Positions 11,581-59,209 of a stretch of 64,000 nt of DNA are shown piece after piece. Position numbers and translations under genes: made by a program. A model generated the notes under the pieces. The model worked only from the letters and a program-made list of their open reading frames with translations, made no database searches and was not told where the DNA came from. The stretch covers positions 1 to 64,000 of the forward strand of contig JAHBWF010000017.1 of the NCBI GenBank assembly GCA_019637105.1, written 5' to 3'. Each line of letters begins with the position of its first letter. The first letter of the stretch is position 1. This stretch comes from Labilithrix sp. (GTDB lineage Bacteria > Myxococcota_A > Polyangia > Polyangiales > Polyangiaceae).

Positions 11581-12077
11581 CGCTCCCGCGTCGACGTTTC
11601 GTTGACCCTCGATCCACACGTGCCGCCGAGCGCGGCGACCTCCTCCGCGTCGAGGAGCAGGAGGATTCGCCCTTCGAGATCGAACACGCCGAGGAGGGCG
11701 GCGCGGAGCGTGACGTTCATCGCCGCCGGTGCTCGCTCGAAGGTGCGCTCGTGGACCTCGATCACGTCGCCGATCTCGTCGACCAGGAGGCTGACCGTGC
11801 CGTCCCTCGTCGTCGCCACGACGTTCATCGGCGAGTCCTCGGTCCGCCGCGGTCGGAGCCCGAGGCGCGCGCGCACGTCGATCGCCGTCACGATCTGCCC
11901 GCGCAGGTTGATGAGCCCGCGGACCGCCGCGGGGGCGAGCGGCACCGGCGTCGTCGCCTGGTGCCGGAGCACCTCCTGGACGTTCACGACGTCGACGCCG
12001 AACAAAAGCCCGTCGACGAAGAAGGTGCAGAGCTGGCGCGTCGCGGGCGCGTCGCTCGCGTCTCGCGAGGCGATCAC
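11577..12077 (-). CDS. cheW: CheW coupling protein
   Basis: 166 residues from a GTG at 12077 that overlaps the cheA stop (12074-12077, GTGA). One CheW domain: [58 protein letters not shown] matches the family core, including the NLRG turn. It bridges the soluble MCP and CheA. No ATG in a sensible place gives a full-length domain, and the GTG overlap agrees with the 4-base junctions of the rest of the operon. Confidence 0.95.
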
Positions 12078-37167: not shown

Positions 37168-37665
37168 ATGCAGCTGACGAGCCGCGGTCGATCGGGGAGC
37201 AAAGCGACGAAGAGCAAGCGCGGGGCGTCCGGGAACCCCGGCGTGAAGGACTTCCAGGCGCTGCTGCGCACCGCCGGCCTTCGAAGCACGACGCCGCGCA
37301 TCGCGGTCCTCGAGCATTTCCACGCGCACGGCGGGCAGAACAGCCACGCCGAGATCTTCGAGGCGCTCGGCGATCGCGGCTTCGACCGGGCGACCATCTA
37401 CAGGATCTTGATGGACCTCGCCGAGGTGGGCATCCTGTCGCGCACCGATCTCGGCGACCACGTGTGGCGCTTCGAGCTGAAGAAGGGCGTCGGCGGCGTG
37501 GAGCACACGGAGGAGCACCCGCACTTCGTGTGCGTCGACTGCGGGGAGGTGTCGTGCTTGCCGGGCCTCTCCATTCGACTCGAAGGGGCGGCGAAGGCGC
37601 CGAAGTCGGTCGCCAAGAAGAAGGTCTCCGTCCAGCTCAAGGGGCGTTGCGACAACTGCGCCTGA
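37168..37665 (+). CDS. Fur-family metalloregulator 1 (Zur-like)
   Basis: 165 residues. Basic 25-residue N-terminal tail, winged helix with DRATIYRILMDLAEVGILSR, and a C-terminal dimerisation/metal domain. H117/H119 and C122xxC125 (HPHFVCVDCGEVSCLP) with C161xxC164 (GRCDNCA) form the structural zinc site. Where PerR has Asp in RFD, this has RFE, so it is Fur/Zur-like rather than PerR-like. It is close to the second Fur-family protein at 44273, sharing HPHFxCxxCxxVxCLP at identical positions. First gene of the metal island. Zur specificity is inferred from neighbours, not proven. Confidence 0.88.
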   Translation: MQLTSRGRSGSKATKSKRGASGNPGVKDFQALLRTAGLRSTTPRIAVLEHFHAHGGQNSHAEIFEALGDRGFDRATIYRILMDLAEVGILSRTDLGDHVWRFELKKGVGGVEHTEEHPHFVCVDCGEVSCLPGLSIRLEGAAKAPKSVAKKKVSVQLKGRCDNCA

Positions 37666-38271: not shown

Positions 38272-38286
38272 TGCAAATAGATTGCG
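38272..38286. promoter_or_regulatory. Island operator, copy upstream of HxCxH gene A
   Basis: TGCAAATAGATTGCG, 70 bases before the ATG of the first HxCxH lipoprotein, inside an AT-rich stretch (38268-38310) that also contains GTTAGATCTAG and TTGCGTTTG. Same element as at 44882, 45698 and 46693. Confidence 0.65.
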
Positions 38287-38355: not shown

Positions 38356-38940
38356 ATGAAAAATAGGTATGGAATCGCGATGGTCGGCTGCGTGGTGGTG
38401 GGGCTCGCCGGTGCGGCCTGCGGCACGGCGCAGGTCGGAGACGAAGTCCGCGCGGACGGGATCGGGGCGGAGCCGCTCGGGCCGCTCGTCCTCGACCCGG
38501 CCGACATCGCTCACGCGTGCGCGCACGTCGGCGTGTCGTCGTACTCGCCGGTCACGGCGACGGCCTCTCCGACTCACCCGACCGTGACCGATCACGTGGC
38601 CTACAGCGTCACGCTCCCGGGCGGAGGCCCGTATTCGGGGAGCGTGGTCTGGGAGGTCGAAGAGAACCACGTCGCCGTCTACGTCGACCCGGACGCGACG
38701 GTCTCCGTGTCCGCCCCCGGCGTGACGGTCACGGACGTGAACGGAGGCCCGGTGACGATCACCCCCGCCGAGTGCCCGCAGCCCGACGGCGGACAGCCCG
38801 ACTACGGGACCTCCGACCGCGGCTTGTATCGCTACTACGAGTTCACGCTGTCCGGCGCGACGCCCCCCTTCGACCTGACGGTCCAGCTGTCGCATGACGA
38901 CGAGAACCCCGTCCTCGCGCTGTTCGAGAACATCGACTGA
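38356..38940 (+). CDS. HxCxH-domain lipoprotein A
   Basis: 194 residues from ATG 38356 with GAGGGGA upstream. Lipobox GAAC with lipid Cys C22. The mature protein is essentially one copy of a domain shared with three neighbouring genes: H53-A-C55-A-H57, then H80 in HVAYSVTLP, then GSVVWEVEENHVAVYV, and a second Cys C140 (TPAEC), 85 residues after C55. I do not recognise the family. The invariant three His and two Cys look like metal ligands. Probable first gene of an operon with the next three genes (gaps 21, 88 and 105 bases), under the operator at 38272. Confidence 0.8.
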   Translation: MKNRYGIAMVGCVVVGLAGAACGTAQVGDEVRADGIGAEPLGPLVLDPADIAHACAHVGVSSYSPVTATASPTHPTVTDHVAYSVTLPGGGPYSGSVVWEVEENHVAVYVDPDATVSVSAPGVTVTDVNGGPVTITPAECPQPDGGQPDYGTSDRGLYRYYEFTLSGATPPFDLTVQLSHDDENPVLALFENID

Positions 38941-38961
38941 GGAGAGCGAGCTCGAGCTCCG

Positions 38962-39996
38962 ATGAGGCTCCGCGTTGCTTCCACGGCGTCCATCGTCGTT
39001 CTTACGGCGATCGGCCTGGCGTGCTCGGACGAGGTCGGTCCGACGCCGCCCGGCGGGCCTGTCCCCGATCCGGCGACGGACGGCTCGGACGGCCGCGCCC
39101 CTCCGATCGAGGACGACCGTGGAAGCGACGGGGGCGTCGGGCTGGGCGACGCCTCGCCGATCGACGACGCCGGCGGCCCCGACGCGAGCGACGCCTCGCC
39201 GTCGGGCGGCGTCAGGGTGATCGCGTCCGAGCCTGCCGAGGGCTCGTCCACCTACGCGTTCGAGATGGTCGAGAGCGGCGCGAGCTGGGCGCGCAAGAAG
39301 CGCGTCCGCCTCGAGTTCGACAGCGCGATGAACACGTCGATCGCCGCGCTCGCGTTGAACGTCGTCCCCGGGGGAGGGAACTACGCGTTCAGCGGCGTCT
39401 GGTCCGCGGACGCGCTCGTCCTCGAGGCCGAGCTGCCGCTCCTCTACGCGGGGGGCCGACCGCTCGAGTACCAGAAGCACTACGCGGTCGACCTGTCGGC
39501 GCTGCGCGACGCCCAGGGTCGCGGCGTGGACGCGGCGCACGGGTACCTCGGCGACGGGGCGCTCGACTTCACGACGATGGCGCGCGACGGGCTGCTCGAG
39601 CACACGTGCCTGCATACGTTCGACGCTCCCCAGCCGCCGTTGGGGCTGTCGGTCACGCCCGAGGCGGGCTTGGCCGTCGGCACGCCGCACCTGCGCTACG
39701 TGATGGTCCTGCCGGACGGCGCCGGCCCGCGGGTCGGGCACGCGACGTGGCAGGTCTTCGGCGCCGGCACGCAGCAGCGGCGCATCGTCTTCTTGCGCGA
39801 CGACGTCCCGCTCACCTTGCGCGGCCCGAACGGAGCTCCGCCGGCGACGGCGCCCGCGCCGTACCCCGTTCCGCGCGTGTGCGCGCTCGTCAAGGCGTGG
39901 GACATGGTGCTGGAGAACGACGTCCCTTACACGCTGTCGTTCGGACCGACGGAGGTGACTCCGATCGAGGTCTTCTTCGAGGCCGCCGCCCTCTGA
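38962..39996 (+). CDS. HxCxH-domain lipoprotein B with Ig-like domain
   Basis: 344 residues. Lipobox IGLAC (lipid Cys at about 21), an Asp/Pro/Ala-rich linker to about 85, then a bacterial Ig-like (SbsA/Big_5 type) domain of about 110 residues: RVRLEFDSAMNTSIAALALNVVP...LEYQKHYAVDLSALRDAQGRGVD. The C-terminal domain is the second member of the HxCxH family: H214-T-C216-L-H218, H243 in HLRYVMVLP, WQVFGAG, and C307 in VPRVCALVK, 91 residues after C216. It follows gene A by 21 bases and is almost certainly cotranscribed. Surface-exposed metal binding is inferred. Confidence 0.8.
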   Translation: MRLRVASTASIVVLTAIGLACSDEVGPTPPGGPVPDPATDGSDGRAPPIEDDRGSDGGVGLGDASPIDDAGGPDASDASPSGGVRVIASEPAEGSSTYAFEMVESGASWARKKRVRLEFDSAMNTSIAALALNVVPGGGNYAFSGVWSADALVLEAELPLLYAGGRPLEYQKHYAVDLSALRDAQGRGVDAAHGYLGDGALDFTTMARDGLLEHTCLHTFDAPQPPLGLSVTPEAGLAVGTPHLRYVMVLPDGAGPRVGHATWQVFGAGTQQRRIVFLRDDVPLTLRGPNGAPPATAPAPYPVPRVCALVKAWDMVLENDVPYTLSFGPTEVTPIEVFFEAAAL

Positions 39997-40084
39997 CGCG
40001 GGCGCGGAGTCGCGACGCGCGCGCGAGGGCCGCGCGTCGCGCCGAGCTCATCGCTGTCTTTCAAGTTCACGGAGTCAACGTCCC

Positions 40085-41581
40085 ATGAAGCGTCCCCTGG
40101 TCACTCTGATCGCTCCGGCGATCGCGCTCGCCGTCGCGTGCAGCGACGCCCTCGAGACGCCGATCGATACGGACGACGCCGGCGCCTCGCCGCCGATCTC
40201 CGACGGCGGCGCGACGGAGCCGTCGCCGGAGGCCTCCGACGACGGAGGCGAGCCTCCCCTCGCGGACGGAGGTGACGCCGACGCGAGCCACGCCGACGCG
40301 GGCGACGCCGACGCAGACGTGTTCGCGCCGTTGATCCCCAGCCTCGCGACGGGCCGGCGCCTCGCGGTCGGCCGCGATCACACGTGCCTTCTCAACGAGG
40401 AGGGGCGCGTGCGCTGCTGGGGCCGGAACATCAACGGCGAGCTCGGCTACGGAGACTTGAACAACCGCGGGGACGACCCCGGGGAGATCGCGCTCCTCGA
40501 GGACGTCCCGCTGGGAGGCCCCGTCGCCGCGATCGCGGCGGGGGGGAGCGTCTCGTGCGCCGTCCGGAGCAACGGCGAGGTGCTCTGCTGGGGCGCCGGG
40601 GGACGCGTCGGGAACGGCGCGACCGGCCACGTCGGATCGCTGCCCGGCCAGATGCCGCCCGCGCCGCTCGCGCTGGGCGGCCCAGCCCGGCAGGTCGTCA
40701 TCGGACACTTCCACGCGTGCGCGCTGAAGACGAACGGCGACGTCGTCTGCTGGGGCCTCGACACGGACGGATCGCTCGGGCGAGGCAGCGCGGGAGACAC
40801 GATCGGCGACGAGGCGGGCGAGATGCCGCCGCCGCCCGTCGACCTCGGCGAGCCGGCGGTCGCGCTCGTATCGGGCGCCTACTCCACCTGCGCCGCGCTC
40901 GCGTCCGGCGCGCTCCGTTGCTGGGGCAGCGCGCGGTACAACCCGGCGATGCTCGGCCACGGGAGCGCGACGGAGCACGTCGGAGACGAGCCCGGCGATC
41001 TGCCGCCCGCGAACGTACCGCTCGGCGGCCTCGCGTTCTCGAGCCTGTACGCGGGCGTCGGCCACGCCTGCGTGCGCTCGATCCTGGGCGGAGCCCTCTG
41101 CTGGGGCGACAACACGTACAACCAGCTCGGTCCCTCGGATCCTGCGGTCGGCGTCGGGGTCGGCGACGCGCCGGGCGAGATGCCGCCGCCGCGCCTCGGC
41201 GCGCAGGCGGACGGCGGCGCCGGCCCGCTCGACATCGCGTCGATGGCGCTCGGCAACGGTCACACGTGCAGCCTGTCGTCCGGCGGTTGGGTCCGCTGCT
41301 GGGGCCGGAACAACTATGGGCAGTGCGGCGTGCCCGGTCAGGCGGTCCTCGGCGACGAGCCCGGCGAGTTCCCTCCCGTGCCGGCGGTCAGCGTCGACGC
41401 GACGGATCCGGTCGTGGAGATCGCCGCGGGGCTCGGCAACCCTTTCACGTGCGCGCGTCTGGCGTCCGGCAACGTGCGGTGCTGGGGACGCAACAACTAC
41501 GGACAGTTGGGCCTCGGCCACACGTCGAACGTCGGCGACGACGAGGTCCCGTCGAGCGTCGCGGCGATCTCGATCTTCTGA
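40085..41581 (+). CDS. RCC1-repeat (beta-propeller) lipoprotein
   Basis: 498 residues. Lipobox LAVAC, then a 60-residue Asp/Ala/Gly-rich linker. At least seven RCC1-type blades follow, each with a C-x-W-G core: VRCWGRNINGELGYGD, VLCWGAGGRVGNGA, VVCWGLDTDGSLGRGS, LRCWGSARYNPAMLGHG, ALCWGDNTYNQLG, VRCWGRNNYGQCGVPG, VRCWGRNNYGQLGLGH. Cys recur as pairs per blade (TCLL...RCWG), a disulfide pattern seen in secreted bacterial RCC1 proteins. It lies between HxCxH genes B and C on the same strand with short gaps, so it is part of the putative metal-responsive unit. Partner unknown. Confidence 0.82.
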   Translation: MKRPLVTLIAPAIALAVACSDALETPIDTDDAGASPPISDGGATEPSPEASDDGGEPPLADGGDADASHADAGDADADVFAPLIPSLATGRRLAVGRDHTCLLNEEGRVRCWGRNINGELGYGDLNNRGDDPGEIALLEDVPLGGPVAAIAAGGSVSCAVRSNGEVLCWGAGGRVGNGATGHVGSLPGQMPPAPLALGGPARQVVIGHFHACALKTNGDVVCWGLDTDGSLGRGSAGDTIGDEAGEMPPPPVDLGEPAVALVSGAYSTCAALASGALRCWGSARYNPAMLGHGSATEHVGDEPGDLPPANVPLGGLAFSSLYAGVGHACVRSILGGALCWGDNTYNQLGPSDPAVGVGVGDAPGEMPPPRLGAQADGGAGPLDIASMALGNGHTCSLSSGGWVRCWGRNNYGQCGVPGQAVLGDEPGEFPPVPAVSVDATDPVVEIAAGLGNPFTCARLASGNVRCWGRNNYGQLGLGHTSNVGDDEVPSSVAAISIF

Positions 41582-41686
41582 CGCGGCGCGCTTCGAGCGC
41601 GCCCGCGGTCCGGCGGCGACGCGCCGCGAGCGAGCTCGTCGAAGGGCGCGCGGCGAGCGCGGCGCGAACGAGGTGACGACGGCGTG

Positions 41687-43356
41687 ATGGCTCATGCGAC
41701 GAGCGAGATGGGGATGGATGCACCTTTGAGACTGCGAGGTCGAACGAGTCCGAGGAGCCGCGGCGCACGAGCCGTCGGCCTCGCGGCGCTGCTCGCGTCG
41801 GCGCTTTTGTTGGCGTCGATGCTCTCCTCGAGCACGGCGCGGGCCGATCTCCCCGCCGGCTGCGCCGAGCTCGGCTTCGCGCTGACGGAGCACTCTTGCT
41901 TCCACGCGACGTTCGGCCCTTACGCGACGGTGACGGCGGCTCCGGGCGTGCCTGCGGCCGCGGCCGCGCCGCGCGTGGACGACGTGCACACGTACCACGA
42001 CGTCGTCTTGCCCAACCCGACCGGTCAAAACACGGTCAGCTACAAGGTCTCCTCCGCGTCGCGCTCCGGCGCGTGGGCGATCTTCCACGACGCGCGCGTC
42101 CCCATCCGTGTCGTGTCGGAGTCGGGGCAAGAGCAACCCGTCGTCCTCTCGCACGACGTCGCGTCGTGCACGTTCTTGCCTCGCGTCGACGTCTTCGAGC
42201 TCGGCTTCGAGCGCTACCGCGTCGTGCTCGGCCCGACGAACGTCACGCGCTCCGTGCTGGTGATCGAGAACATCTCGGACTTCATGCGGCACAACGGACG
42301 CGATCTCGACGGGGACGGCTACGGCGACGTCGCGGACGCCGTGATCACCGCTTGCGTGCCGGCCGCCGGCTACGTGCAGAACGCGTCCGACTGCGACGAC
42401 ACGAACCCCGCGATCCATCCGGGGCCGCCGAGGTCTGCGACGGGATCGACCAGAACTGCAACGGCGTCGTCGACGACGTCGGCCTGCCGTGCACGTCCGG
42501 CCAAGGGCAGTGCCGGGCGAGCGGGACGACGCAGTGCCTCGCGAGCCAGGCGCCGGCCGTGTGCAGCGCGGTCGCCTCGGCCCCCGGCGTCGAGACGTGC
42601 GACGGCGTCGACGAGGACTGCGACGGCGTCCCCGACGTCCTCGAGCCGGGGTTGTGCGCGCACCCGGACGCGCCGTCGTGCGTCCTCGTGCTCGGCGCGA
42701 CGCGCTGCGGGTGCGACGCGGACTCCGACTGCGGCGGACCGACCAGCGAGCGCGTCTGCGATCTGGACGCGAGACGTTGCGTGACCGGGTGCGTCGCGCT
42801 CCCGGGTCGAAACGCGTGCCCCGCCGGGCTCGTGTGCACCTCCGCGGACCCCGCGAACCCCGGCACGTGCGTCCCGCCGACGAGCGGATGCACCGACGAC
42901 GCGGGGTGCGCGGCGACCCCGCTCACGCCGCGTTGCCTCGTCCCTCCCGGGCAGCTCGGGCGCTGCGTGGAGTGCGTCGACGACCTGTCGTGCGGATCGC
43001 GCGGCGACCGCCGGACGGCGTGCATCGGGCCCGACCATCGCTGCGCCGAGTGCACCGCCGAGGACACCTCGCGCTGCGACGCCACGGAGCGCGGCTCGGC
43101 GTGCTTGCCGAGCGGGCTCTGCGGGTGCACCGACGACGGGGAGTGCGAGAGCGGGGCGTGTGACCTCGCTCGCGGAGCGTGCTCGCCGGCGGACGCCGAG
43201 CCGGCGGGAGAGGACGGCGAGCCTGCGCCCGCCGACGCGTGCGGGTGTCGTGCCCTCGGCGCCCGCGCCGACGGGGCGCGAGGCGCCTGGCTCGTCGTCG
43301 CGCTCGCCGCCGTCTTCCGCCGGCGCCGGCTCGGACGCGCGGCGGCGCCCGCGATC
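41687..43356 (+). CDS. HxCxH protein C: MopE-type Cys-rich surface protein, frameshifted
   Basis: Starts at ATG 41687. Signal peptide to about ARA, then HxCxH domain: H69-S-C71-F-H73, H101 in HTYHDVVLP, C161 in VASCTF. A MopE-type Ca/metal-binding repeat follows (DCDDTNPAIHPG), but the frame then breaks near 42420, where CCGGGGCC would need one more G. In the shifted frame it continues sensibly: AEVCDGIDQNCNGVVDD, TCDGVDEDCDGVPD, many CxxD/Cys-rich repeats, then CGCRALGARADGARGAW-LVVALAAV-FRRRR, a MYXO-CTERM-like sorting tail. Either a sequencing error in a G run or a real lesion. The shifted frame has no stop before gene D, so the true 3' end is uncertain. Confidence 0.7.
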
Positions 43357-43974
43357 GTGAGCGCCGCGCTGATCGCGTTCGCCGGCTGCGGCGGCCGGAT
43401 GGAGGAGGTCACGGAGCCGAGCACGACGACGCCGCCGTCCAACGTGCCGGACAGGGGCGTCGAGGGCGGGCCCGCCCCCGACGCGGCCGTCGCCGACGCC
43501 GATCCGCCCGACGCGTGCGTGCCCGAGCTCGGGTCGAAGGTCGTCGGCCACGCGTGCAGCCACGGGACGCACGGCCCCTTCGAGTCGGTCGTCGCGGCGG
43601 ACGGCGCCGCCTCCGCCGCGCCCGCGGTGAACGTGGTTCATCGCACGTACGAGGTGGTGATGCCGAGCGCGTCCCCGCCTTGGTCGGGCGCGGTCGGCTA
43701 CGCGCCGTCGCGCGACGGCCGGCACGCGATCTTCACGGCGCCGCTCGTCGGCCTCCGGATCTTCTCGGGAGACGCGGAGGTGTCGGCGGTTCATCGACAG
43801 GACGTCTCCGACGCCGCGTGCGCCGCGCTCGACCAAGCCGTCGTCGCTCCGCTGGCGAAGGGGCAGCCCGTGCGCATCGAGCTCTCCGATTCTCCCGAGC
43901 GAGAGGTGAAGCTCTTCATCGAGCACTTGGGGACGTTCGACGGAGACGCGTGGGCGTCTTCGTGCGCGCCGTAG
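43357..43974 (+). CDS. HxCxH-domain lipoprotein D
   Basis: About 205 residues if started at GTG 43357, whose GTGA overlaps a TGA stop in another frame. The hydrophobic segment and lipobox AFAGC are good, but the positive residues expected before them (RRRRLGRAAA) are encoded upstream, where the frame is continuous with protein C. An Asp/Pro/Ala linker precedes the fourth copy of the domain: H65-A-C67-S-H69, H95 in HRTYEVVMP, SGAVGYAPSRDGRHAIFTAP, C155 (SDAAC), 88 residues after C67. Best alignment partner is domain C (GPF/GPY, VHxxYxVVxP, AIF). Same putative operon as A-C. Confidence 0.7.
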   Translation: MSAALIAFAGCGGRMEEVTEPSTTTPPSNVPDRGVEGGPAPDAAVADADPPDACVPELGSKVVGHACSHGTHGPFESVVAADGAASAAPAVNVVHRTYEVVMPSASPPWSGAVGYAPSRDGRHAIFTAPLVGLRIFSGDAEVSAVHRQDVSDAACAALDQAVVAPLAKGQPVRIELSDSPEREVKLFIEHLGTFDGDAWASSCAP

Positions 43975-44272: not shown

Positions 44273-44752
44273 TCAGCCGCACTTCTCGCAGCGTCCCGTG
44301 ATCTGGACGTCGACGACGCCCCGAACGATGCGCGGCGGGATCCGCACGGAGTCGTGGGGGAGGCACGTGACGGTCTTGCACACGAGGCACGTGAAGTGCG
44401 GATGCGGATCGTGGCCCAGCGAGCCGCTGCGCAGCTCGAACCGCCAGGTCCCGTCGCCGCCGTTCGAGCGGTCGACGAGGCCGACCTCGGTCAGCGCCAC
44501 GAGGATCCGCCAGACCGTGACCTTGTCGAGGCTCTCCCCCTCGAGTCGTTCGGCGACCTCCGCGTGACTCATCGGCCCCTTGGCGCGACCGAGCTCGCGG
44601 AGCACCGACAGGCGGCCCGAGGTCACCTTGAGCTTGGCCGCGCGGAGCTGCTCGCGCAGATCCATGTCGGCGGGCGCCGGCGCGACGCCTCGGCGAGCGC
44701 CGCCTCCGGACGAGCGGCGCGGCACGCTCGGTTCTCGTGCGGCAGTCTTCAT
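44273..44752 (-). CDS. Fur-family metalloregulator 2 (Zur-like)
   Basis: 159 residues from ATG 44752. Basic N-terminal tail, winged helix (LDKVTVWRILVALTEVGLVDR), RFE in the position of the PerR sensing Asp, and HDPHPHF with C122xxC125 and C155xxC158. These Cys pairs fall almost exactly where they do in Fur-like 1 (37168), and the HPHFxCxxCxxVxCLP block is shared, so the two are paralogues. It is divergent from an ArsR-type gene, with a near-perfect operator (44882-44896) between them, suggesting autoregulation. Metal specificity inferred as zinc from the neighbours. Confidence 0.9.
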   Translation of the reverse strand: MKTAAREPSVPRRSSGGGARRGVAPAPADMDLREQLRAAKLKVTSGRLSVLRELGRAKGPMSHAEVAERLEGESLDKVTVWRILVALTEVGLVDRSNGGDGTWRFELRSGSLGHDPHPHFTCLVCKTVTCLPHDSVRIPPRIVRGVVDVQITGRCEKCG

Positions 44753-44881
44753 TCGCTTCTTCAGATGATGAAGTATCTGCCGTTCGAAGGACGCGCGCAA
44801 GCGTCGTCGCCCGGGCCGCGACGCGCGCGAGGAGCGGGGCGGCCCGGAGACGGTCGCGCAGGTGTTCAACCGTGGTGTGCA

Positions 44882-44896
44882 TGCAATTGGATTGCG
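44882..44896. promoter_or_regulatory. Island operator between fur-like gene 2 and arsR-like gene
   Basis: TGCAATTGGATTGCG, containing the perfect inverted repeat GCAAT-TGG-ATTGC. It lies about 130 bases before the Fur-like start and 145 bases before the ArsR start (less if ArsR begins at a GTG near 44960). It is the most symmetrical of the copies together with the one at 45698. Confidence 0.68.
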
Positions 44897-45040
44897 TTGT
44901 TTCGCGGCCTGGCGCACTCTGCGCGCTGCGGATCGAGCCGCCGCACCACCCGCACGAGAGTGTCCGTGATCCCGCGCGAGCGACTCCCACGCCCCCAATG
45001 CTCCATCCACGAGCACGCGCGCCGCGTCGCGCGCGAGGGC

Positions 45041-45346
45041 ATGGTCCGATCGCGGGCGCGGAGCGTTCGGAGCGTCGCGCGCATCTTCGTCGCCGCCGGG
45101 GACGCTCACCGCCTACGGCTCCTGGTGTTGCTCCTGCAGAGCCCCATGTCCATCGGGGAGCTCGCCAGAGCGACAGGACGCACCGTGTCGCTCGTGGCGC
45201 AACAGATGCGCGTCCTCCGCGACGCCAGGCTCGTGAAGGGGACCCGCGAAGGCAGGCAGATCGTCTACGCGATCCTCGACCGACGGACGCATCGCCTCCT
45301 GGACACGTGTCTCTGGCACGCTATCCAGAGCGGGAGCGCGCGGTGA
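45041..45346 (+). CDS. ArsR-family winged-helix regulator
   Basis: 101 residues from ATG 45041 (GAGGGC upstream); in-frame GTGs at 44960 and 44966 would add about 25 residues. The fold is typical of ArsR/SmtB: VARIFVAAGDAHRLRLLVLLLQSPMSIGELARATGRTVSLVAQQMRVLRDARLVKGTREGRQIVYAILD. The ELCVCDL alpha-3 metal site is absent, but the last helix has D, H, C and H (ILDRRTHRLLDTCLWHA), roughly where SmtB-type alpha-5 zinc sites sit. It could therefore be a second zinc sensor or a non-metal member. Convergent with the His-rich lipoprotein gene (3-base gap). Confidence 0.85.
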   Translation: MVRSRARSVRSVARIFVAAGDAHRLRLLVLLLQSPMSIGELARATGRTVSLVAQQMRVLRDARLVKGTREGRQIVYAILDRRTHRLLDTCLWHAIQSGSAR

Positions 45347-45349
45347 CGG

Positions 45350-45634
45350 TCACTGCGTGCAAGCCGCGACGCACTCGTCCTTCTTCGCCGCGCACTCCTC
45401 TTCGGTGCGGCCCTCGCCGTGGGCGAAGTCGTCACACTCCTTCGCCTTGGCGTTCGACTGCATGACCCTCACGCAGTCTTCATGGAACGCCTCGCACGAG
45501 GGCGGGATGCTCTCCTCGTGCCCGTGCTCGTCCTCACCCTCGTGTTCGTGATCGTGATCGTCCGAGCAGGCGTAGAGCGGTCCGCCGAGGAGACCGAGAA
45601 CGAGCAAACCGACCGAGAGAGAACGAGCTTTCAC
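45350..45634 (-). CDS. His-rich metal-binding lipoprotein
   Basis: 94 residues from GTG 45634, placed six bases after AAGGAGG; an earlier in-frame ATG lacks any site. Lipobox PLYAC (lipid Cys C23). Immediately after comes an Asp/His/Glu run with H27, H29, H31, H37 and H39, a typical low-affinity zinc/nickel/copper buffer. A compact helical domain with six Cys (47, 54, 67, 81, 88, 92) follows, spaced as in small disulfide-bonded domains. The operator at 45698-45712 lies 64 bases upstream, so it is a strong candidate for metal-starvation induction. Confidence 0.82.
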   Translation of the reverse strand: MKARSLSVGLLVLGLLGGPLYACSDDHDHEHEGEDEHGHEESIPPSCEAFHEDCVRVMQSNAKAKECDDFAHGEGRTEEECAAKKDECVAACTQ

Positions 45635-45697
45635 GAGACCTCCTTCGAGCCCGCGCTGCGAGCTCACGACGGCGTGTACCACGGGGCTCCAGTTAAA

Positions 45698-45712
45698 CGC
45701 AACTTAATTGCG
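45698..45712. promoter_or_regulatory. Island operator upstream of His-rich lipoprotein gene
   Basis: CGCAACTTAATTGCG, the core of a perfect 8-bp inverted repeat AAACGCAA-CTTAA-TTGCGTTT (45695-45715). It is the best palindrome of the set and lies in the short gap between the MbnP-like gene stop and the His-rich lipoprotein start, both read leftward. Confidence 0.72.
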
Positions 45713-45736: not shown

Positions 45737-46660
45737 TCAGAGGCGCGAGATGGTGCAGAGCCCGAGGCCGTTCAAGTGGGCCTGGCCGGCGGACGTGGCG
45801 AGCATGAACGCCTGGAGGTTCTGCTCGGGGAGCGGGACGCTCCCCGGGTTGTAGAGGATCCGCTGGCCGTCCTCGTCCACCAGAGGGCCGCCGTCCGCCG
45901 CGCGCAGATCCGCGAGGGGCTGCGTGGCGAGCGCGTCGAAGGTGACCCGAGAATCGCCGTCCGCGACCGCGGCGATGGCCTCGAACCTCAGGTTGGCGAC
46001 CTCCGTTCCGAGCGTGTCCCAGAACAGGTGATCGAGGTGGAACGTGATCTCGACGTCGGCGGTCGCGTTGCTGCGGACGACGACGCCTTCCGTGTTGTCG
46101 AGGCCGTTCGTGCAGTTCGTGGCGCGGGTCGGGTTCCCGAGGCCCCACGCGAACGAGACGGAGCGCCCGTCCTTCTCCGCGGTCCCCTCGAGCCAGTAGT
46201 TGAAGCCGCCCTGCTGCATCCGGACGAGGTCCTCCGCGGCGACCTGGCCGACGGTCTTCGCCGTGGGCGACGGCGGCACGACGCGGAAGCCGAACCGCTC
46301 CCAGCGACGGGCCTCCAGGCCGTCCTGCAGGAGGATGGTCGGATCGTCGAGGTGCAGATCCGTGACGAAGACGTCCGTCGAAGCGAACGCGTCGACGTCG
46401 TCGGCGCTCGCGAGGCGCAGCTCCCCGACGCTGACGAGGTACTTCGAGAACCGCACCGTCCAGCCGTCGGCGAAGCGGATCTCGGCGCCGTTCTTGACGT
46501 ACGGATAGCCGGTCTTGGCCGCGCCCTCGCCGCTGACGCGTATCGCGACGGCCCCGCGTCCGGCGTCGCTCGCCGCGCACCCGCCCTGCGCGGCGAAGGC
46601 GACGCACGTCGCCGTCAAGACGGCCAGCGCGCGCGGGCGGAGCGTGTTCTCGGGGTGCAT
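45737..46660 (-). CDS. MbnP-like metal-binding lipoprotein 2
   Basis: 307 residues from ATG 46660. Signal with lipobox AQGGC (lipid Cys C28). The mature protein resembles the MbnP-like periplasmic family found beside TonB receptors and methanobactin genes: an opening strand pair (VAIRVSGEGAAKTGYPYVKNGAEIRFADGWTVRFSKYLVSVGELRLASADD), a central FNYWLEGTAEKDGRSVSFAWGL, and ADVEITFHLDHLFWDTLG. Conserved Trp are numerous (in MbnP one is oxidised to make the Cu site). The family assignment is by overall pattern and context, and so only moderate. Own operator copy at 46693, 33 bases upstream. Confidence 0.65.
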   Translation of the reverse strand: MHPENTLRPRALAVLTATCVAFAAQGGCAASDAGRGAVAIRVSGEGAAKTGYPYVKNGAEIRFADGWTVRFSKYLVSVGELRLASADDVDAFASTDVFVTDLHLDDPTILLQDGLEARRWERFGFRVVPPSPTAKTVGQVAAEDLVRMQQGGFNYWLEGTAEKDGRSVSFAWGLGNPTRATNCTNGLDNTEGVVVRSNATADVEITFHLDHLFWDTLGTEVANLRFEAIAAVADGDSRVTFDALATQPLADLRAADGGPLVDEDGQRILYNPGSVPLPEQNLQAFMLATSAGQAHLNGLGLCTISRL

Positions 46661-46692: not shown

Positions 46693-46707
46693 TGCAAGTG
46701 AATTGCG
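46693..46707. promoter_or_regulatory. Island operator upstream of MbnP-like gene 2
   Basis: TGCAAGTGAATTGCG, between the stop of MbnP-like gene 1 (46723) and the start of MbnP-like gene 2 (46660), in an AT-rich patch (GTATTGTGTCTGATGCAAGTG). The placement implies that gene 2 has its own metal-responsive promoter in addition to any readthrough from the receptor gene. Confidence 0.66.
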
Positions 46708-46722
46708 AATGTAGGGTGCCGA

Positions 46723-47502
46723 TCAGGGGGCGTTCTCGACCTTGAAGGCGCCGGCGCTCTGGACGCCGAGCTCCCAGGAGAGGCTCGCCTGGCTCCCGGG
46801 CGCGATGAGCGCGGCGCCCTTCGTCGGGTCCACGATGAGCTCGTCGAACTTCGTCTGGTCGAACCACGGCCGCGGGTCCACGGTGACGAGGAGCCGGCGC
46901 TGGTCGTCGATCACGACGTCGGCCGAGATCTGAATGCGGCGTTTGGTCCCCACCGCCTCGATGTCGAGCCCGCCCTCGAAGCGTACGGCCTCGGCCCCCC
47001 GCGCGGCGACGCCGACGACGTACGCCTGATGACCGCGGAGGCACGTCGTCGCTCCGAGCGCCGAGGCGCGCGGCGGATGGAGGCCGATGGTGACGGACCT
47101 GGCCTCTCCCGCGATCCCCTCGCGCGCGCCGAGGTCGACGCGCTCTCCGGACGTCAGGTCGAGGGCGAGCTGCTCGAGCCACTCGCCGCGGACTTCGCCG
47201 CCGTTGAAGTGGTCGACGCCCGGGTGGGCGTGGGCGGAGGGGAGGAGCCAGTCGTAGGCGCGGCGCACCGAGGCCGAGAGCCCGGCCTCGGCGTAGAGGT
47301 AGATGGGGCCGACGGAGACGCACGCCTCCTCCAGCGTCACGTCCCAGCCGAGGGCGGTGCGGAAGGCGCGCGGCGCGGGCGCCGGCTCGACGGAGAGATC
47401 GAACATGGCGCGTCGTCCGCCCGTCCCTGGCTCGCACGCCCACGCTGCGAGGAGGGCCACGGAGGCGGTGAGCGCGCCGAGCGCGCGACGGCGTCGAGTC
47501 AT
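46723..47502 (-). CDS. MbnP-like metal-binding lipoprotein 1
   Basis: 259 residues from ATG 47502, overlapping the stop of the TonB-receptor gene (47499-47502, ATGA). Signal MTRRRRALGALTASVALLA with lipobox AWAC (lipid Cys C23). It shares the general plan of the 45737 gene product: RTALGWDVTLEEACVSVGPIYLYAE, then a His cluster H91-A-H93...H98 (SAHAHPGVDHF), a GHQAYVVGVAARG strand and a C-terminal TVDPRPWFDQTKFDEL. Translational coupling to the receptor suggests a surface or periplasmic partner that binds the same metal ligand. Confidence 0.72.
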   Translation of the reverse strand: MTRRRRALGALTASVALLAAWACEPGTGGRRAMFDLSVEPAPAPRAFRTALGWDVTLEEACVSVGPIYLYAEAGLSASVRRAYDWLLPSAHAHPGVDHFNGGEVRGEWLEQLALDLTSGERVDLGAREGIAGEARSVTIGLHPPRASALGATTCLRGHQAYVVGVAARGAEAVRFEGGLDIEAVGTKRRIQISADVVIDDQRRLLVTVDPRPWFDQTKFDELIVDPTKGAALIAPGSQASLSWELGVQSAGAFKVENAP

Positions 47503-49784
47503 AAGCGGTCCTCCTCCTCTTCCTTCGCGTCGAAATAGAACGTGCACGTCGCCATGAGCGTCTGCGGCGGTCCGGCCGCGAAGTGCTGCTGGCTCACGAG
47601 GGAGGGAAACGCCGAGGGGCCGCGGAAGTTCGACGCGTAGTTGTAGACCGCGAGCTTGTTGCGTCGATCGAAGAGGTTGGCGGCCTCGAGGCCGAGCTCG
47701 ACCATCCGGTAACGAAGTCGGACGGCGGCGTCGAACGTGCCGTACGCGGGGCCGAGCTGCCCGAACGGCAGCGGTCTCGGCGCCACGTACGTGAAGCCGC
47801 TCGCGACGTTGTAGCGGAAGGTCTCGCCGAACGCGCGAAACGAGCGCCGGAGCGACGCGTCGACGCGCGCGACCCACCGCGGGACGTAGGGGAGTCGAGG
47901 CCCGGCGGTGAGGTCGAGCTCGGAGGCGCCCGGAGGGGGCAGGTACGCCTCCGCGTAGGTGATGCTCGTCTGCGTGTCGAGCCCGAAGGGCGTCGTGACG
48001 CGCGCGGCCCCGAGGGCGCCGAAGCGGTTCGACGCGCCGATCGGAGTGTTGCGGCCGGCCGTTTCGTCGAAGACGAGGTCGCGTTCGACGCGCGTGTGGA
48101 AGGCGACGGTCCTCGCGTCGAGGGCGAAGTACCCGCTCTCCACGACGTTGCTCACGAGGCCGCTCTCCACGGCGCGCACGCGCGCGAAGGGAGCGAACTC
48201 TCCTTGCGACAGGGCCTGCGCGTCGCTCGAACGGGTCCCGACGCCGAGGCTCGTGATCCAGCGGAGCCGCCGGTGGACGGTCACGTCGGCGGAGAGCTTG
48301 GGCGCAGCGGCGACGCCGAACGCTTCGACGGCCTCCGACGTGAGGCGGTCGCCCGATCGGTCGACGGCCGGACGGTTCCGATCGACGACGGAGAAGGCGA
48401 ACGTATCGAGCCGCAGGCCCCCCCGGAGGGTGAGCCTCGGGAGCGCCACGAAGCGGCCCGCCGCGTAGAAGGCGACGTTGGTGATCCGGAGGTGGTTGTC
48501 GAGGTCGACGCGGTAAGGGACGCCGTCGGCGAACCGCAGCCTCCTCGCCGCCGAGTCGGCGTCGTCGAAGCGCGCGTAGTAGCCGACCTCGACCTCGTGA
48601 CGACGTCCGAGCGCGTCGACGCGTCGGGCGTAGGCGCCGCGTCCGCCCACCGTCGTCGCGCCGTAGGACTGCTCGAGCCCGTCCCCGCGCTGCGGCTCTC
48701 CCAGGGGGCTCACGTCGCCGACGAACCCCGTCAGGTTCTGCCGCACGCGGAGCTGCCGGACCGTCGCGAAGACCTGCTGCTCGATCCGATCGGAGGGGCC
48801 GCGCTTCTCGAGCCGGAGAGAGAGGCCGTGGCGCGCGACGCCGCCGCCCTGGTTCCGATCGTAGAGGCAGAAGAACTGGTCCTCCTCCGCGGCCGGGCAG
48901 AGGGAGAGGCGCCGCGCCGCGTAGTCGTCCTGCCGGATCACCCCCGCCGTGTCGAAGCGCCCCGCGTACGACGTCGCGAGGAGCGTCGCGGTGACCCCCT
49001 GCCCGAGGGAGCGCTCGTACTGGGCCATCGCGCGGGTCGACGCGTGGGCTCGGTTCGTGCCGAAGCCTTCTCCCTGGACGAAGTCGACGCCGGCGAACGT
49101 GCGCCGGGACGTCCCGGCGGGCCCCCAGAGCGCGACGAGGCGGCGGGTGTCGAACGAACCGTAGGCGCCCCGCGCCGTCACGCCGCGGTGCTCGAGCCCG
49201 AGCCGGTAGTCGACGCTGCCCGCGACGGCGAAGTCGCCCTGACGAGGATCGAAGGGGCCCTCGACGACGCGGAGCCGATCGACGAGCTCGGGGATGATGA
49301 AGTGGGTGTCCGCGTAGCCGTGCGCGTGGGCGTTCGAGGGCTCGTTGATCGGGGCGCCCTCGAGCCGCATCTCGATGTCCTGGCCCTCTCCGGCGTCGAA
49401 GCCGCGGAGGAAGATGGTCGACGCGTGGCCTTCCCCGGACGGGTTGGAGAGGAAGAGGCCGGGGGCGAGCGTGAGGAGCTGCTCGGCGTTGCGCCGCGGC
49501 ACGTCGCCGAGCTGACCGATCCGGATGTCCATGTCGCTCGCCGCCGTCGGCTCGACCCGCTTGCTCCCGACGACCTTCACCTCGCCGGGCGACGCCTCGG
49601 CGGCGGGAGCCGACGCCGACCCTGCCGGCGCCGAGCTCACCGGCCCGGCGCCAGCCTGTCCAGATGCAGGTCGATTGCTCTGAGCGCGCGCGGGCGCGGC
49701 CCGGAGGACGACGCAGGCGACCGCGGCGAAGAGCGCGATCGCCCGCACGAACGTCGGCGGGCGCGGCGGGCTCGGCGGGGCCAT
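47499..49784 (-). CDS. TonB-dependent outer-membrane receptor (candidate zinc receptor)
   Basis: 761 residues. Signal peptide ending APARAQ, Pro/Ala/Ser linker, a TonB-box-like VKVVGSK (about 69-75), plug domain (about 80-200) and a 22-strand barrel. The plug carries H153-A-H155-G-Y-A-D-T-H161 (NEPSNAHAHGYADTHF), a His-rich motif suggesting transition-metal recognition. An extracellular loop has two Cys (LSLCPAAEEDQFFCLYD). The barrel ends TCTFYFD followed by an acidic AKEEEEDRL extension, unlike the usual terminal aromatic. No siderophore genes are near. It heads an operon with MbnP-like gene 1. ZnuD-like zinc uptake is inferred. Confidence 0.88.
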   Translation of the reverse strand: MAPPSPPRPPTFVRAIALFAAVACVVLRAAPARAQSNRPASGQAGAGPVSSAPAGSASAPAAEASPGEVKVVGSKRVEPTAASDMDIRIGQLGDVPRRNAEQLLTLAPGLFLSNPSGEGHASTIFLRGFDAGEGQDIEMRLEGAPINEPSNAHAHGYADTHFIIPELVDRLRVVEGPFDPRQGDFAVAGSVDYRLGLEHRGVTARGAYGSFDTRRLVALWGPAGTSRRTFAGVDFVQGEGFGTNRAHASTRAMAQYERSLGQGVTATLLATSYAGRFDTAGVIRQDDYAARRLSLCPAAEEDQFFCLYDRNQGGGVARHGLSLRLEKRGPSDRIEQQVFATVRQLRVRQNLTGFVGDVSPLGEPQRGDGLEQSYGATTVGGRGAYARRVDALGRRHEVEVGYYARFDDADSAARRLRFADGVPYRVDLDNHLRITNVAFYAAGRFVALPRLTLRGGLRLDTFAFSVVDRNRPAVDRSGDRLTSEAVEAFGVAAAPKLSADVTVHRRLRWITSLGVGTRSSDAQALSQGEFAPFARVRAVESGLVSNVVESGYFALDARTVAFHTRVERDLVFDETAGRNTPIGASNRFGALGAARVTTPFGLDTQTSITYAEAYLPPPGASELDLTAGPRLPYVPRWVARVDASLRRSFRAFGETFRYNVASGFTYVAPRPLPFGQLGPAYGTFDAAVRLRYRMVELGLEAANLFDRRNKLAVYNYASNFRGPSAFPSLVSQQHFAAGPPQTLMATCTFYFDAKEEEEDRL

Positions 49785-49845: not shown

Positions 49846-51093
49846 GTGAACCGACGCCTCGCCAGGCTGGCCCTCCTGGGTGCCCTCGCCCTCGACGGAT
49901 GCAGTGACGACGCTTCGAGCGCTCCGGCGGAGAAGCCCCACGTCTCCCGCTTACGCGTTCGTGTCGCCGTCGCCGATCTGCGCGCGCCGACGATCGCCTT
50001 CTACGACGTCGCCGATCGCGAGGTCGTAGGGCGTTTGACGATCGACGCCCCGGCGGCTTCCCTCGTCGGATCGCAATCGGGCGACACGGCGCTCGCCGTC
50101 CCGAAGGACGGCGGCGGGGTGCGCGTCCTCGGCGGCGGCGTCGCGGTGATCCCTCACAAGGACCACATCCACATCTTCAAGTCGCCGCCCGAGGTGCTCG
50201 GGGATCCCGTGCCCGGGGCGGGGGCGGCCGCCTCCACGTTCGCGGACGGCCAGTGGGGGATCTTCTTCGAGGGAGATCCGGCGGGGGCAGGCGGAGCGGC
50301 GGCGGCGCTCGCCCTCACGGAGGAGCCGTGGGTCCAGGGGACGCGCGTCCCCGTGGACGTCGCCGCGCCCACGCCGCACCGAGGGTTCACGATCCCCTTC
50401 GGGGGCGGGTACCTCGTGAGCCGACCCCAGGCGAGCGGCGGCCCCGTGGCGGGCGGGGCGGACCTCGTCGTGGCGGGGAGCGCGCCGCAGCCCTTGGTCG
50501 AGTGCCCGGAGATGACGAGCGCGGCGAGCTCCGGAGCCGTCGTCGCGTTCGCGTGCCGCGACGGCGTCGTGCTGCTCGGTCCGGACCGAGTCGCCGGCGC
50601 GCCCGTAGCGTTGCCCGACGGCATGAAGCCGTACGAGCTCGCCGCCCTCGCGGAGCAGCCGTTCCTCCTCGGTCGCGATCCCGCGGGGCGCGTCTTCGCG
50701 CTCGAGCTCGCGACGCGCGTCGCGCGCGCGCTCCCGCTCGAGGGAGAGGCGTGCGACGCGGTCCTCGAGATCGGCACGACGCCGCGCGGCGTCGTCCTGA
50801 CCAGCGCGGGGAACGTCGAGCGCTTCGCGCTGGCGAGCGACGAGCGTCGCACGACCGTCGCGGCGGTGCCCGCCTTCGCGTGCTCGGATCCCGAGCGCCC
50901 GCGCCTGGCCGCGACGCCCGGTCGAGCGTGGATCACGTCGCCCGCGAGCGGCGAGCTCCTCGAGGTCGACACGAGCGCGGGCGCGACGGTACGGCGGATC
51001 TCCGTGGGCGGCGCGCCCGGGCCGATCGCCGTCCTCGGGCTCGCCGCGCGCGACGCGGACCTCTCGACGGGCAACGACAAGCTCACGGACTGA
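49846..51093 (+). CDS. AztD-like beta-propeller zinc metallochaperone (lipoprotein)
   Basis: 415 residues from GTG 49846. Lipobox LDGC with lipid Cys C19. Repeating blades of about 45-50 residues, e.g. AVADLRAPTIAFYDVADREVVGRLTIDAP, SSGAVVAFACRDGVVLLGPD, GVVLTSAGNVERFALAS. The order IPH104-KDH107-IH109-IF, then FADGQWGIFFEGD, then APTPH178RGFTIPFGGGYLVS resembles AztD, a periplasmic zinc chaperone whose His residues hand Zn to a solute-binding protein. Divergent from the TonB receptor with a shared putative operator. No ZnuABC/AztABC genes occur in the window. Identification is by motif order, not alignment score. Confidence 0.7.
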   Translation: MNRRLARLALLGALALDGCSDDASSAPAEKPHVSRLRVRVAVADLRAPTIAFYDVADREVVGRLTIDAPAASLVGSQSGDTALAVPKDGGGVRVLGGGVAVIPHKDHIHIFKSPPEVLGDPVPGAGAAASTFADGQWGIFFEGDPAGAGGAAAALALTEEPWVQGTRVPVDVAAPTPHRGFTIPFGGGYLVSRPQASGGPVAGGADLVVAGSAPQPLVECPEMTSAASSGAVVAFACRDGVVLLGPDRVAGAPVALPDGMKPYELAALAEQPFLLGRDPAGRVFALELATRVARALPLEGEACDAVLEIGTTPRGVVLTSAGNVERFALASDERRTTVAAVPAFACSDPERPRLAATPGRAWITSPASGELLEVDTSAGATVRRISVGGAPGPIAVLGLAARDADLSTGNDKLTD

Positions 51094-55859: not shown

Positions 55860-58827
<2,968 letters not shown>

Positions 58828-58832
58828 GATTC

Positions 58833-58857
58833 CTAGTTGCGGATAATTCGCAACTAG
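58833..58857. promoter_or_regulatory. Perfect 9-bp inverted repeat, candidate PerR operator
   Basis: CTAGTTGCG (58833-58841), a 7-base AT-rich spacer GATAATT, then CGCAACTAG (58849-58857). The repeat begins five bases upstream of the perR start codon and overlaps its ribosome binding site, so binding would block perR expression. It differs from the classical PerR box but has the size and AT-rich centre of a Fur-family site. No equally good copy was seen before katG, which could be read through from perR. Confidence 0.68.
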
Positions 58858-59209
58858 ACTTCTAGACGCTCGCGTCCGCCGAGGCAAGGGCCGCGTGCCC
58901 TCCCGACGCGCGCGGACACGCGGCGGCGCGGGCGTCGTGGTGCGAGCAGTGTTTTCATAAGTGACTGAAATGGCGCATTATTTTGGTCATTTCGCGGGGC
59001 TGGGCATGGGCCGGTCTTCGCCGTGCTCGAGGAGGGACCTTCGGGGGCGGGCGTCTCCGCCGCCGCGCTCGGCCCTCGCCGCCGCCTCGGGAGGCGCACC
59101 TCGATTCGTGGCCGCGCCGCGCCTCGAACGAGGTGTCGGGCCGTTCGCTCGCGCGTCGTGCGTCGAGGCGGGGCCGGGTTCGTCCGAGGCGGGCATGCGC
59201 GCCCGAAAT
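58858..59209. other. Gene-free stretch with an AT-rich island
   Basis: Between perR and the end of the ECF sigma gene (both leftward). No gene is supported. An AT-rich patch at about 58950-58993 (AGTGTTTTCATAAGTGAC...GGCGCATTATTTTGGTC) stands out against the GC-rich background and contains GAAATG/CATTTC arms. It is about 130 bases from the perR start and may be its promoter or another regulator's site. Confidence 0.5.

Follow-up and report, generated by a model that had tools for sequence, protein, structure and literature searches.

Exported HxCxH-domain proteins of Labilithrix and other Myxococcota as a candidate zinc-capture family

A stretch of 64,000 nucleotides from Labilithrix sp. (contig JAHBWF010000017.1 of assembly GCA_019637105.1, positions 1 to 64,000; the window hereafter) encodes, between positions 38,356 and 43,974, four related domains, A to D, that each carry the motif H-x-C-x-H, and these domains belong to a family that reaches no curated cut-off in the libraries we scanned. 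We consider it probable that the members of this family are exported zinc-capture proteins induced by zinc starvation, and we place less confidence in any exact set of metal ligands than in zinc capture itself. The zinc reading rests on gene context: about half of the relatives outside the window's class lie close to a ZnuA domain, and a single predicted operator stands before genes of the window cluster and before a gene for the zinc chaperone ZigA in the same genome. The cluster is laid out as follows, with E values from a family profile that contains no window rows unless a Pfam model is named.

38356..38940, + strand: A, a lipoprotein with lipobox LAGAAC (by eye); one HxCxH domain at 38476-38937, E 7.8e-12
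38962..39996, + strand: B, a lipoprotein with lipobox AIGLAC (by eye); HxCxH domain at 39562-39993, E 2.4e-12
40085..41581, + strand: RCC1-repeat lipoprotein inside the cluster; PF13540 6.8e-48, PF25390 4.7e-71
41687..42400, + strand: C, signal peptide (by eye) and HxCxH domain at 41843-42286, E 9.2e-26
42400..43330, + strand: C, MopE/Cys-rich part in the next frame; PF11617 (Cu-binding_MopE) at 36.6 bits, cut-off 27
43330..43974, + strand: D, lipobox-like IAFAGC (Cys at about 43387) and HxCxH domain at 43507-43971, E 4.8e-28

One domain family in four copies

The initial annotation had described H-x-C-x-H, a third His further on and a second Cys in each of the four domains, and all four carry these residues in that form. 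Counted residue by residue on the translations, A has H53/C55/H57, H80 and C140, and B has H214/C216/H218, H243 and C307; for C and D the motifs were checked, with the numbering of D as the annotation gave it. Among the 511 six-frame stop-free stretches of at least 60 amino acids in the window, H-x-C-x-H occurs four times, each time in one of the A to D domains, against a mean of 0.57 and a largest value of 3 in 200 residue shuffles, and the longer motif that includes the third His occurs four times against none in the 200 shuffles. The profile without window rows, built from 39 relatives, finds all four domains in a search of the whole window, with the next match at an E value of 6.3, and this bears out the proposal that they form one family. 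The proteins that bear the four domains are also predicted to be exported, as had been claimed, judging by eye from their lipoboxes or signal peptide. A search of the genome with the single sequence of B returned only B itself convincingly, the second match (E 0.0036) being without the motif, and matches in C48, C235 and C35 of G000 likewise lacked the motif on inspection.

That the family is undescribed also holds for the libraries scanned. The HxCxH domain reached no Pfam or NCBIfam cut-off, either in the window proteins or in 43 aligned domains, and had no match in PADLOC; three weak single-member Pfam matches and a weak NCBIfam match to SoxY were taken as chance, and membership of a known family in these libraries was rejected. 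An FG-GAP match at E 0.3 lies outside the HxCxH domain. A sequence relative in the PDB was rejected as well, the only matches being two rows of SlpX with a best E value of 0.26, and nothing on the family was found among open-licence PMC papers.

With profiles built in turn from 4, 22 and 43 domains, the family was detected in 8 of 59 relatives (E 0.01; one of the eight, G027, without the motif), in 32 of 318 genomes of the window's class (E 0.001) and in 60 of 377 genomes sampled from the phylum (E 0.0001), tallies that include the window's own genome and are lower bounds, since scoring was confined to the top candidates of each genome. When named-species genomes were scanned with a DNA pattern that used GC-rich codons and H[AST]C, 53 loci came up, and the profile identified 25 of these as true family loci. 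These lie in Myxococcus, Corallococcus, Pyxidicoccus, Archangium, Hyalangium and Myxococcota bins, together with L078 and L090, and 23 of the 25 are titled as members of the Myxococcota. The two exceptions are L090, labelled 'bacterium' and with a domain identical to the one in G513, a genome of the phylum, and L078, labelled Comamonas; the latter (Comamonas sp. KCTC 72670) holds a Myxococcus-like family cluster and may be a mislabelled or mixed record. The other 28 loci were dropped as unrelated, 12 of them (in Ramlibacter, Tepidimonas and others) with a matching stretch of the form HACSHR..GPF..VNC, which we take to belong to a sigma-54-type activator.

Four adjacent copies are found in 16 of the 25 true loci, counting a copy cut by the locus edge in L091 and in L117. 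The four of Myxococcus xanthus (L110) are a bare lipoprotein, a protein with a Cys/His-rich N-terminus, one with a MopE-like stretch after the domain and one with an Ig-like front, a set that by eye is close to that of the window, where the N-terminal region of B is Ig-like by eye and has no Pfam match. One genome, G293, has by eye the same gene set as the window, including the RCC1-like lipoprotein (L173 8489-9904). In a tree of the domains, which rests on few columns, the C domain of the window is placed with C-like genes of G293, G296, G285, G152 and G045 in a supported group of 7 rows, and the B domain in another supported group, of 16 rows, among which are genes of G293, G304, G031, G006 and Myxococcus. 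Because these groupings run across genomes, the four domain copies look old.

Conserved residues and predicted fold

Residues were counted in domains dereplicated at 90 percent, first 101 and then 125, and are given in D numbering. C17 and C105 are kept in all 125 domains, including members without the His residues, and H19 is kept in 118, H45 in 114 and E139 in 112; at position 15, 91 domains have H and 26 have E. All members of the set (H/E)15-H19-H45-E139 are present together in 108 of the 125 domains, and the set includes a residue, E139, that the initial annotation did not list. The 17 incomplete domains comprise five without H/E15, H19 and H45, in which position 139 is Asp in three and another residue in two, four with two or three members of the set gone, and eight with one loss each (two at H45, two at position 15 and four at E139, one of these four domains being cut off by a locus edge). 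That no domain lacks either Cys, not even those without the His, makes a disulfide between C17 and C105 most likely. We read the pattern as a His/Glu metal site whose members tend to disappear together, next to a Cys pair that serves a different, structural purpose. The likely ligands are His/Glu15, His19, His45 and Glu139. The earlier proposal of a metal site can be kept to this extent: the conserved set looks like a metal site, but the Cys, kept even where His is lost, do not look like ligands. Two points limit the reading of joint loss. Single losses of set members occur too, and a tree-aware comparison had 2-3 supported independent pairs each time, too few for significance, with the second residue changing in step in 1.1-1.9 of them and in the opposite sense in 0.0-0.1.

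Beyond the conserved set the domains agree little in sequence, with column identity averaging 28 percent in A3. The 26 E15 domains, mostly from outside the window's class, have on average 2.2 His in the 45 residues before the domain and 1.8 in the 40 after it, and the 91 H15 domains have 1.0 and 0.3 in the same stretches; many members outside the class have His-rich ends such as HDHE. The loci L061 and L064 (G280 and G107) encode multi-domain proteins with the Cys pair and without the His/Glu set, a type that is possibly a metal-free branch of the superfamily.

The AlphaFold model of the D domain, made with an alignment of 43 sequences, has a mean predicted local distance difference test score (pLDDT) of 91.9 and a predicted template modelling score (pTM) of 0.87. 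It places H15, C17 and H19 on a helix at residues 10-22, which is followed by a beta-sandwich. As residues i and i+4 of a helix share one face and residue i+2 does not, the Cys of H-x-C-x-H points away from both His in the predicted helix. The predicted beta-sandwich is of the PPC/collagen-binding type: Foldseek has collagen-binding domains from ColG and ColH in its first eight PDB rows (best E 1.4e-4, template modelling (TM) scores 0.52/0.67, 10 percent identity), and weaker matches include other secreted beta-sandwich domains. None of the 43 domains matched the PPC model (PF04151) at E 0.1. An excerpt of PMC4356367 describes how calcium converts the linker before the ColG domain from helix to strand, which offers a precedent for a metal site at this place, with another metal. 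Relatives among viral folds were rejected, as the sole match below 0.001 in that search, to an unnamed protein, has TM scores of 0.40/0.22.

Zinc genes, a shared predicted operator and the weighing of readings

Outside the window's class, 29 of the 50 genomes have a ZnuA domain (PF01297) 175-2183 bases from a family place, which accounts for 29 of the 56 places. This model also covers manganese-type proteins. At L195 the order is ZnuA, an unnamed lipoprotein, the family gene and a cobW/COG0523 GTPase; at L180 ZnuA precedes the family gene and an ABC-3 permease follows it; and at L184 a Fur gene lies at the family locus. In 8 of 32 genomes a COG0523 gene lies no more than 15 kb from a family place, with one to four family places per genome used for the distances. 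At L195 (622-1386) and L192 (614-1354) the lipoprotein between ZnuA and the family gene carries CHGGHCHC or CHNGHCHA, and the L195 copy has no Pfam match.

The second line of context is a predicted palindromic operator, the box, with a motif drawn from promoters in the window. The four window sites are its source and lie at most about 100 bases from likely starts (those of A, of the Fur and ArsR genes, of a His-rich lipoprotein and of the lipoprotein gene 45737-46660), several of these starts being unsettled.

38272..38286, + strand: box TGCAAATAGATTGCG, predicted palindromic operator, 69 bases before the start of A
44882..44896, both strands: box TGCAATTGGATTGCG, between divergent Fur and ArsR genes
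45698..45712, no strand assigned: box CGCAACTTAATTGCG, before the His-rich lipoprotein
46693..46707, no strand assigned: box TGCAAGTGAATTGCG, 32 bases before the lipoprotein gene 45737-46660

In its strict form (YGCAANNNNATTGCR) the box has 6 distinct sites (8 strand matches) in the 8.45-Mb genome, against 2 for a reversed-pattern control; four are in the window cluster, one is in C43 and one in C124. The C124 site, which was not used in drawing the motif, lies just before a gene that exceeds the curated ZigA cut-off (629.1 bits against 600), with S18 and DUF1826 genes downstream. Excerpts of the literature report DUF1826 in clusters of Zur-regulated COG0523 genes (Haas et al., PMC2770081) and an S18 gene among listed Zur targets (PMC6103462). 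As in a Zur regulon, one predicted operator stands before family genes and a known zinc-starvation gene. The perfect palindrome YGCAATNNNATTGCR occurs at 39 sites in 13 of 22 other family genomes, and its reversed pattern at none; 17 of the 39, in 8 genomes, lie within 10 kb of a family place, where 0.14 are expected, the sites being clustered and so not independent. A looser box (YGCAANNNNNTTGCR) is present in 16 of the 25 true loci and in none of the 28 unrelated ones (Fisher test, p 1.4e-7; the reversed control has no match in either set), two sets that differ in taxon and have G+C fractions of 0.70 and 0.66.

A number of observations weigh against reading the family as zinc-capture proteins. 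For the other 27 of the 56 out-of-class places, some of which lie at contig ends, no ZnuA was found up to 3.5 kb away, and 24 of the 32 genomes have no COG0523 gene within 15 kb. The strict box at C43:12191 has no obvious zinc gene adjoining it, 22 of the 39 palindromes are away from family places, two palindromes in G031 lie inside copies of one repeated open reading frame, 9 of the 22 other family genomes have no perfect palindrome, and 9 of the 25 true loci have no box in the 4.3-8 kb examined. The box also resembles that of the Streptomyces nickel regulator Nur. The two Fur-family proteins that flank the cluster fall below every NCBIfam equivalog cut-off, and no scanned window gene passes a curated zinc-specific cut-off, an AztD-like gene being below its own. 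Finally, the lipoprotein encoded at 45737-46660 is presumably similar to MbnP, a copper family, though it matches no Pfam or NCBIfam model. No single window neighbour proves zinc alone.

Given this balance, the mechanism that we infer for zinc capture would run as follows. Under zinc shortage, a Zur-type repressor of the Fur family would leave the boxes, and the family proteins would be made, exported and held, mostly by lipid anchors, at the surface or in the periplasm. In each domain the N-terminal helix would be stapled to the PPC-like beta-sandwich by the C17-C105 disulfide, and one zinc would probably be bound through H/E15, H19, H45 and E139 in a site of the three-His/one-Glu type. Captured zinc would then be passed to a nearby periplasmic or outer-membrane uptake route, which would be ZnuABC in about half of the out-of-class relatives and, in the window, a TonB receptor with accessory proteins. 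We extend this only tentatively, and with rather more doubt than belief, to the proposal that the domains make up a new zinc-binding class, a PPC-like beta-sandwich with a disulfide-stapled 3-His/1-Glu site on its N-terminal helix, and that myxobacteria may have multiplied it into a lasting set of four surface proteins, differing in anchors and extensions, whose joint action as an extracellular zinc relay to a TonB receptor would replace or supplement the mostly single-copy version that is often found beside znuA in other classes of the phylum.

Four other readings were weighed. The domain could be a structural or adhesive PPC-like unit, in which a structural metal tightens the N-terminal helix and the protein serves matrix or prey contact and not zinc uptake. 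The ColG and ColH domains at the top of the Foldseek results and the calcium response of the ColG linker speak for such a role. Against it stand the Znu neighbours and the box, both suggestive of zinc supply, and the His-rich ends of many out-of-class members, and we regard this reading as unlikely. Also improbable in our estimate is copper or nickel handling at the surface under a Nur-like or copper-responsive Fur protein. It would account for the MopE repeats after the C domain, which exceed their Pfam cut-off, and for the presumed likeness of the neighbour 45737-46660 to MbnP and of the box to the Nur box. However, the box also precedes the curated ZigA zinc chaperone gene of the same genome, 29 of the 56 out-of-class relatives lie beside ZnuA, and the MbnP identity is unconfirmed by any model.

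The initial annotation had itself favoured one metal site made of all five residues, that is, the H-x-C-x-H motif, the third His and the second Cys. Both Cys and most of the His are highly conserved, as such a site would require, but none of the 125 domains lacks the Cys pair whereas some lack part or all of the His set, the predicted helix turns the motif Cys away from two His, and the proteins are exported to where Cys pairs normally oxidise. We rejected a site of all Cys and His on the first of these grounds and hold the five-residue site to be quite improbable. Three-His sites are common in catalysis. That the proteins are zinc-stress enzymes, for example stand-in hydrolases that use three His in catalysis, and not carriers is very improbable, as no enzyme family reached cut-off and the sequence outside the conserved set is so variable, even though an excerpt of PMC6103462 places stand-in enzymes in Zur regulons.

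Gene organisation, neighbours and known systems

The description of the cluster as four neighbouring genes needs revision, since the RCC1-repeat gene stands between B and C and since C and D share a frame apart from one break, which makes three genes with four domains most likely. The C domain is in the frame of 41582-42781, and the MopE/Cys-rich part of C and the whole of D are in the frame of 41677-43971; the break falls within 42380-42425 (near 42,400), beside a run of C/G and where the signal of G+C content at third codon positions switches frame, and either an error of assembly or a genuine lesion may lie behind it. From 43105 to the lipobox Cys of D (at about 43387), the sole ATG, GTG or TTG in the frame of D is the GTG at 43357, ten residues before the Cys. 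This is too near for a normal signal peptide, and D as an ordinary separate lipoprotein gene was therefore rejected. In four relatives, G293 (L178), G295 (L051), G296 (L176) and G285 (L169), C-like and D-like domains lie in one stop-free frame, with the tail, the Arg cluster and the lipobox in the order of the window. At the junction the start codon is ATG in G293 and TTG in G285, and there is none in G295 or G296; given its ATG, G293 could produce D alone. We therefore regard D as most likely the final portion of a C-D protein, in some species perhaps also made alone. The tail of the MopE part is, we presume, of the MYXO-CTERM type, and in the relatives a tail of this presumed type runs directly into a lipoprotein-type signal.

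The neighbouring genes of the window that bear on the argument are the following.

37168..37665, + strand: Fur-family regulator, candidate Zur; PF01475 5.5e-13
44276..44821, - strand: second Fur-family regulator, start unsettled; PF01475 1.4e-9
44990..45346, + strand: ArsR-family regulator, start unsettled; PF01022 2.1e-9
45350..45682, - strand: small His-rich lipoprotein DDHDHEHEGEDEHGHEE, start unsettled; no Pfam match
45737..46660, - strand: conserved lipoprotein; similar proteins recur (by eye) beside family clusters
47499..49784, - strand: TonB-dependent receptor; PF00593 2.1e-11, PF07715 9.5e-10
49846..51093, + strand: AztD-like lipoprotein; NF038015 5.1e-16, 58.3 bits, far under the 400-bit cut-off

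Relatives (by eye) of the small His-rich lipoprotein, with a DHDHEH-like stretch and then CEAFH, recur at L165 (3843-4199) and L166 (1985-2308), where a box is close by and an ArsR- or Fur-like gene adjoins, and an AztD-like gene is also seen by eye in G004. Elsewhere in the window, a third Fur-family-like gene (58309-58887) lies by eye beside a catalase-peroxidase-like gene (55860-58181). At L128, near the ZigA cluster, a HAF-repeat protein (10225-11688) has a short Cys/His-rich stretch (GHIHREPTGDWCHC, GEAHGDHCHC) in common with the second paralogue of M. xanthus L110 (1823-2470, - strand), and this stretch is perhaps another metal-binding module.

Among known systems, AztD, a zinc metallochaperone of the periplasm or surface, is alike in being an exported accessory zinc binder of uptake, one of its two zinc sites consists of three His, and it provides an example of an accessory exported protein that can hand zinc to a solute-binding protein (PMC6689063, excerpt). 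AztD differs in being a bladed propeller (same excerpt), whereas the family domain is a predicted beta-sandwich, and none of the 43 scanned HxCxH domains matched NF038015. The zinc site of AdcA is made of three His and one Glu (PMC7858048, excerpt), which is the same kind as the set proposed for the family, but ZnuA and AdcA have another fold than the one predicted here and PF01297 matched none of the 43 domains. The ColG s3b and PPC domains are the best structural matches, and the ColG linker is metal-responsive, yet identity is 10 percent, the TM score on the query is 0.52, no Pfam PPC match was obtained and the metal is another one; ColG presumably also lacks the His/Glu and Cys set of the family. 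PA4063 and ZinT, periplasmic proteins under Zur control, resemble the family as exported zinc binders under zinc deficiency (excerpts of PMC8561739 and, for ZinT, PMC6689063), but PA4063 has a ferredoxin-like fold (PMC8561739, excerpt), and no profile or PDB sequence link between proteins of this type and the family was found. The MopE repeat (PF11617), present in the second half of C, is a module separate from the HxCxH domain.

Accessory exported zinc binders are a known kind of protein, and what would be new here is the family and the fold used for that job. If zinc is bound, the family would add a new fold to the few accessory zinc carriers and give a job to genes without a name in the scanned libraries, and for capturing metal a set of four copies that differ in their anchors would be an unusual arrangement. 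Among open-licence PMC literature, we found no paper on zinc uptake in myxobacteria, and the family supplies a list of candidates for this process, including the four-gene cluster (L110) of the genetically tractable Myxococcus xanthus.

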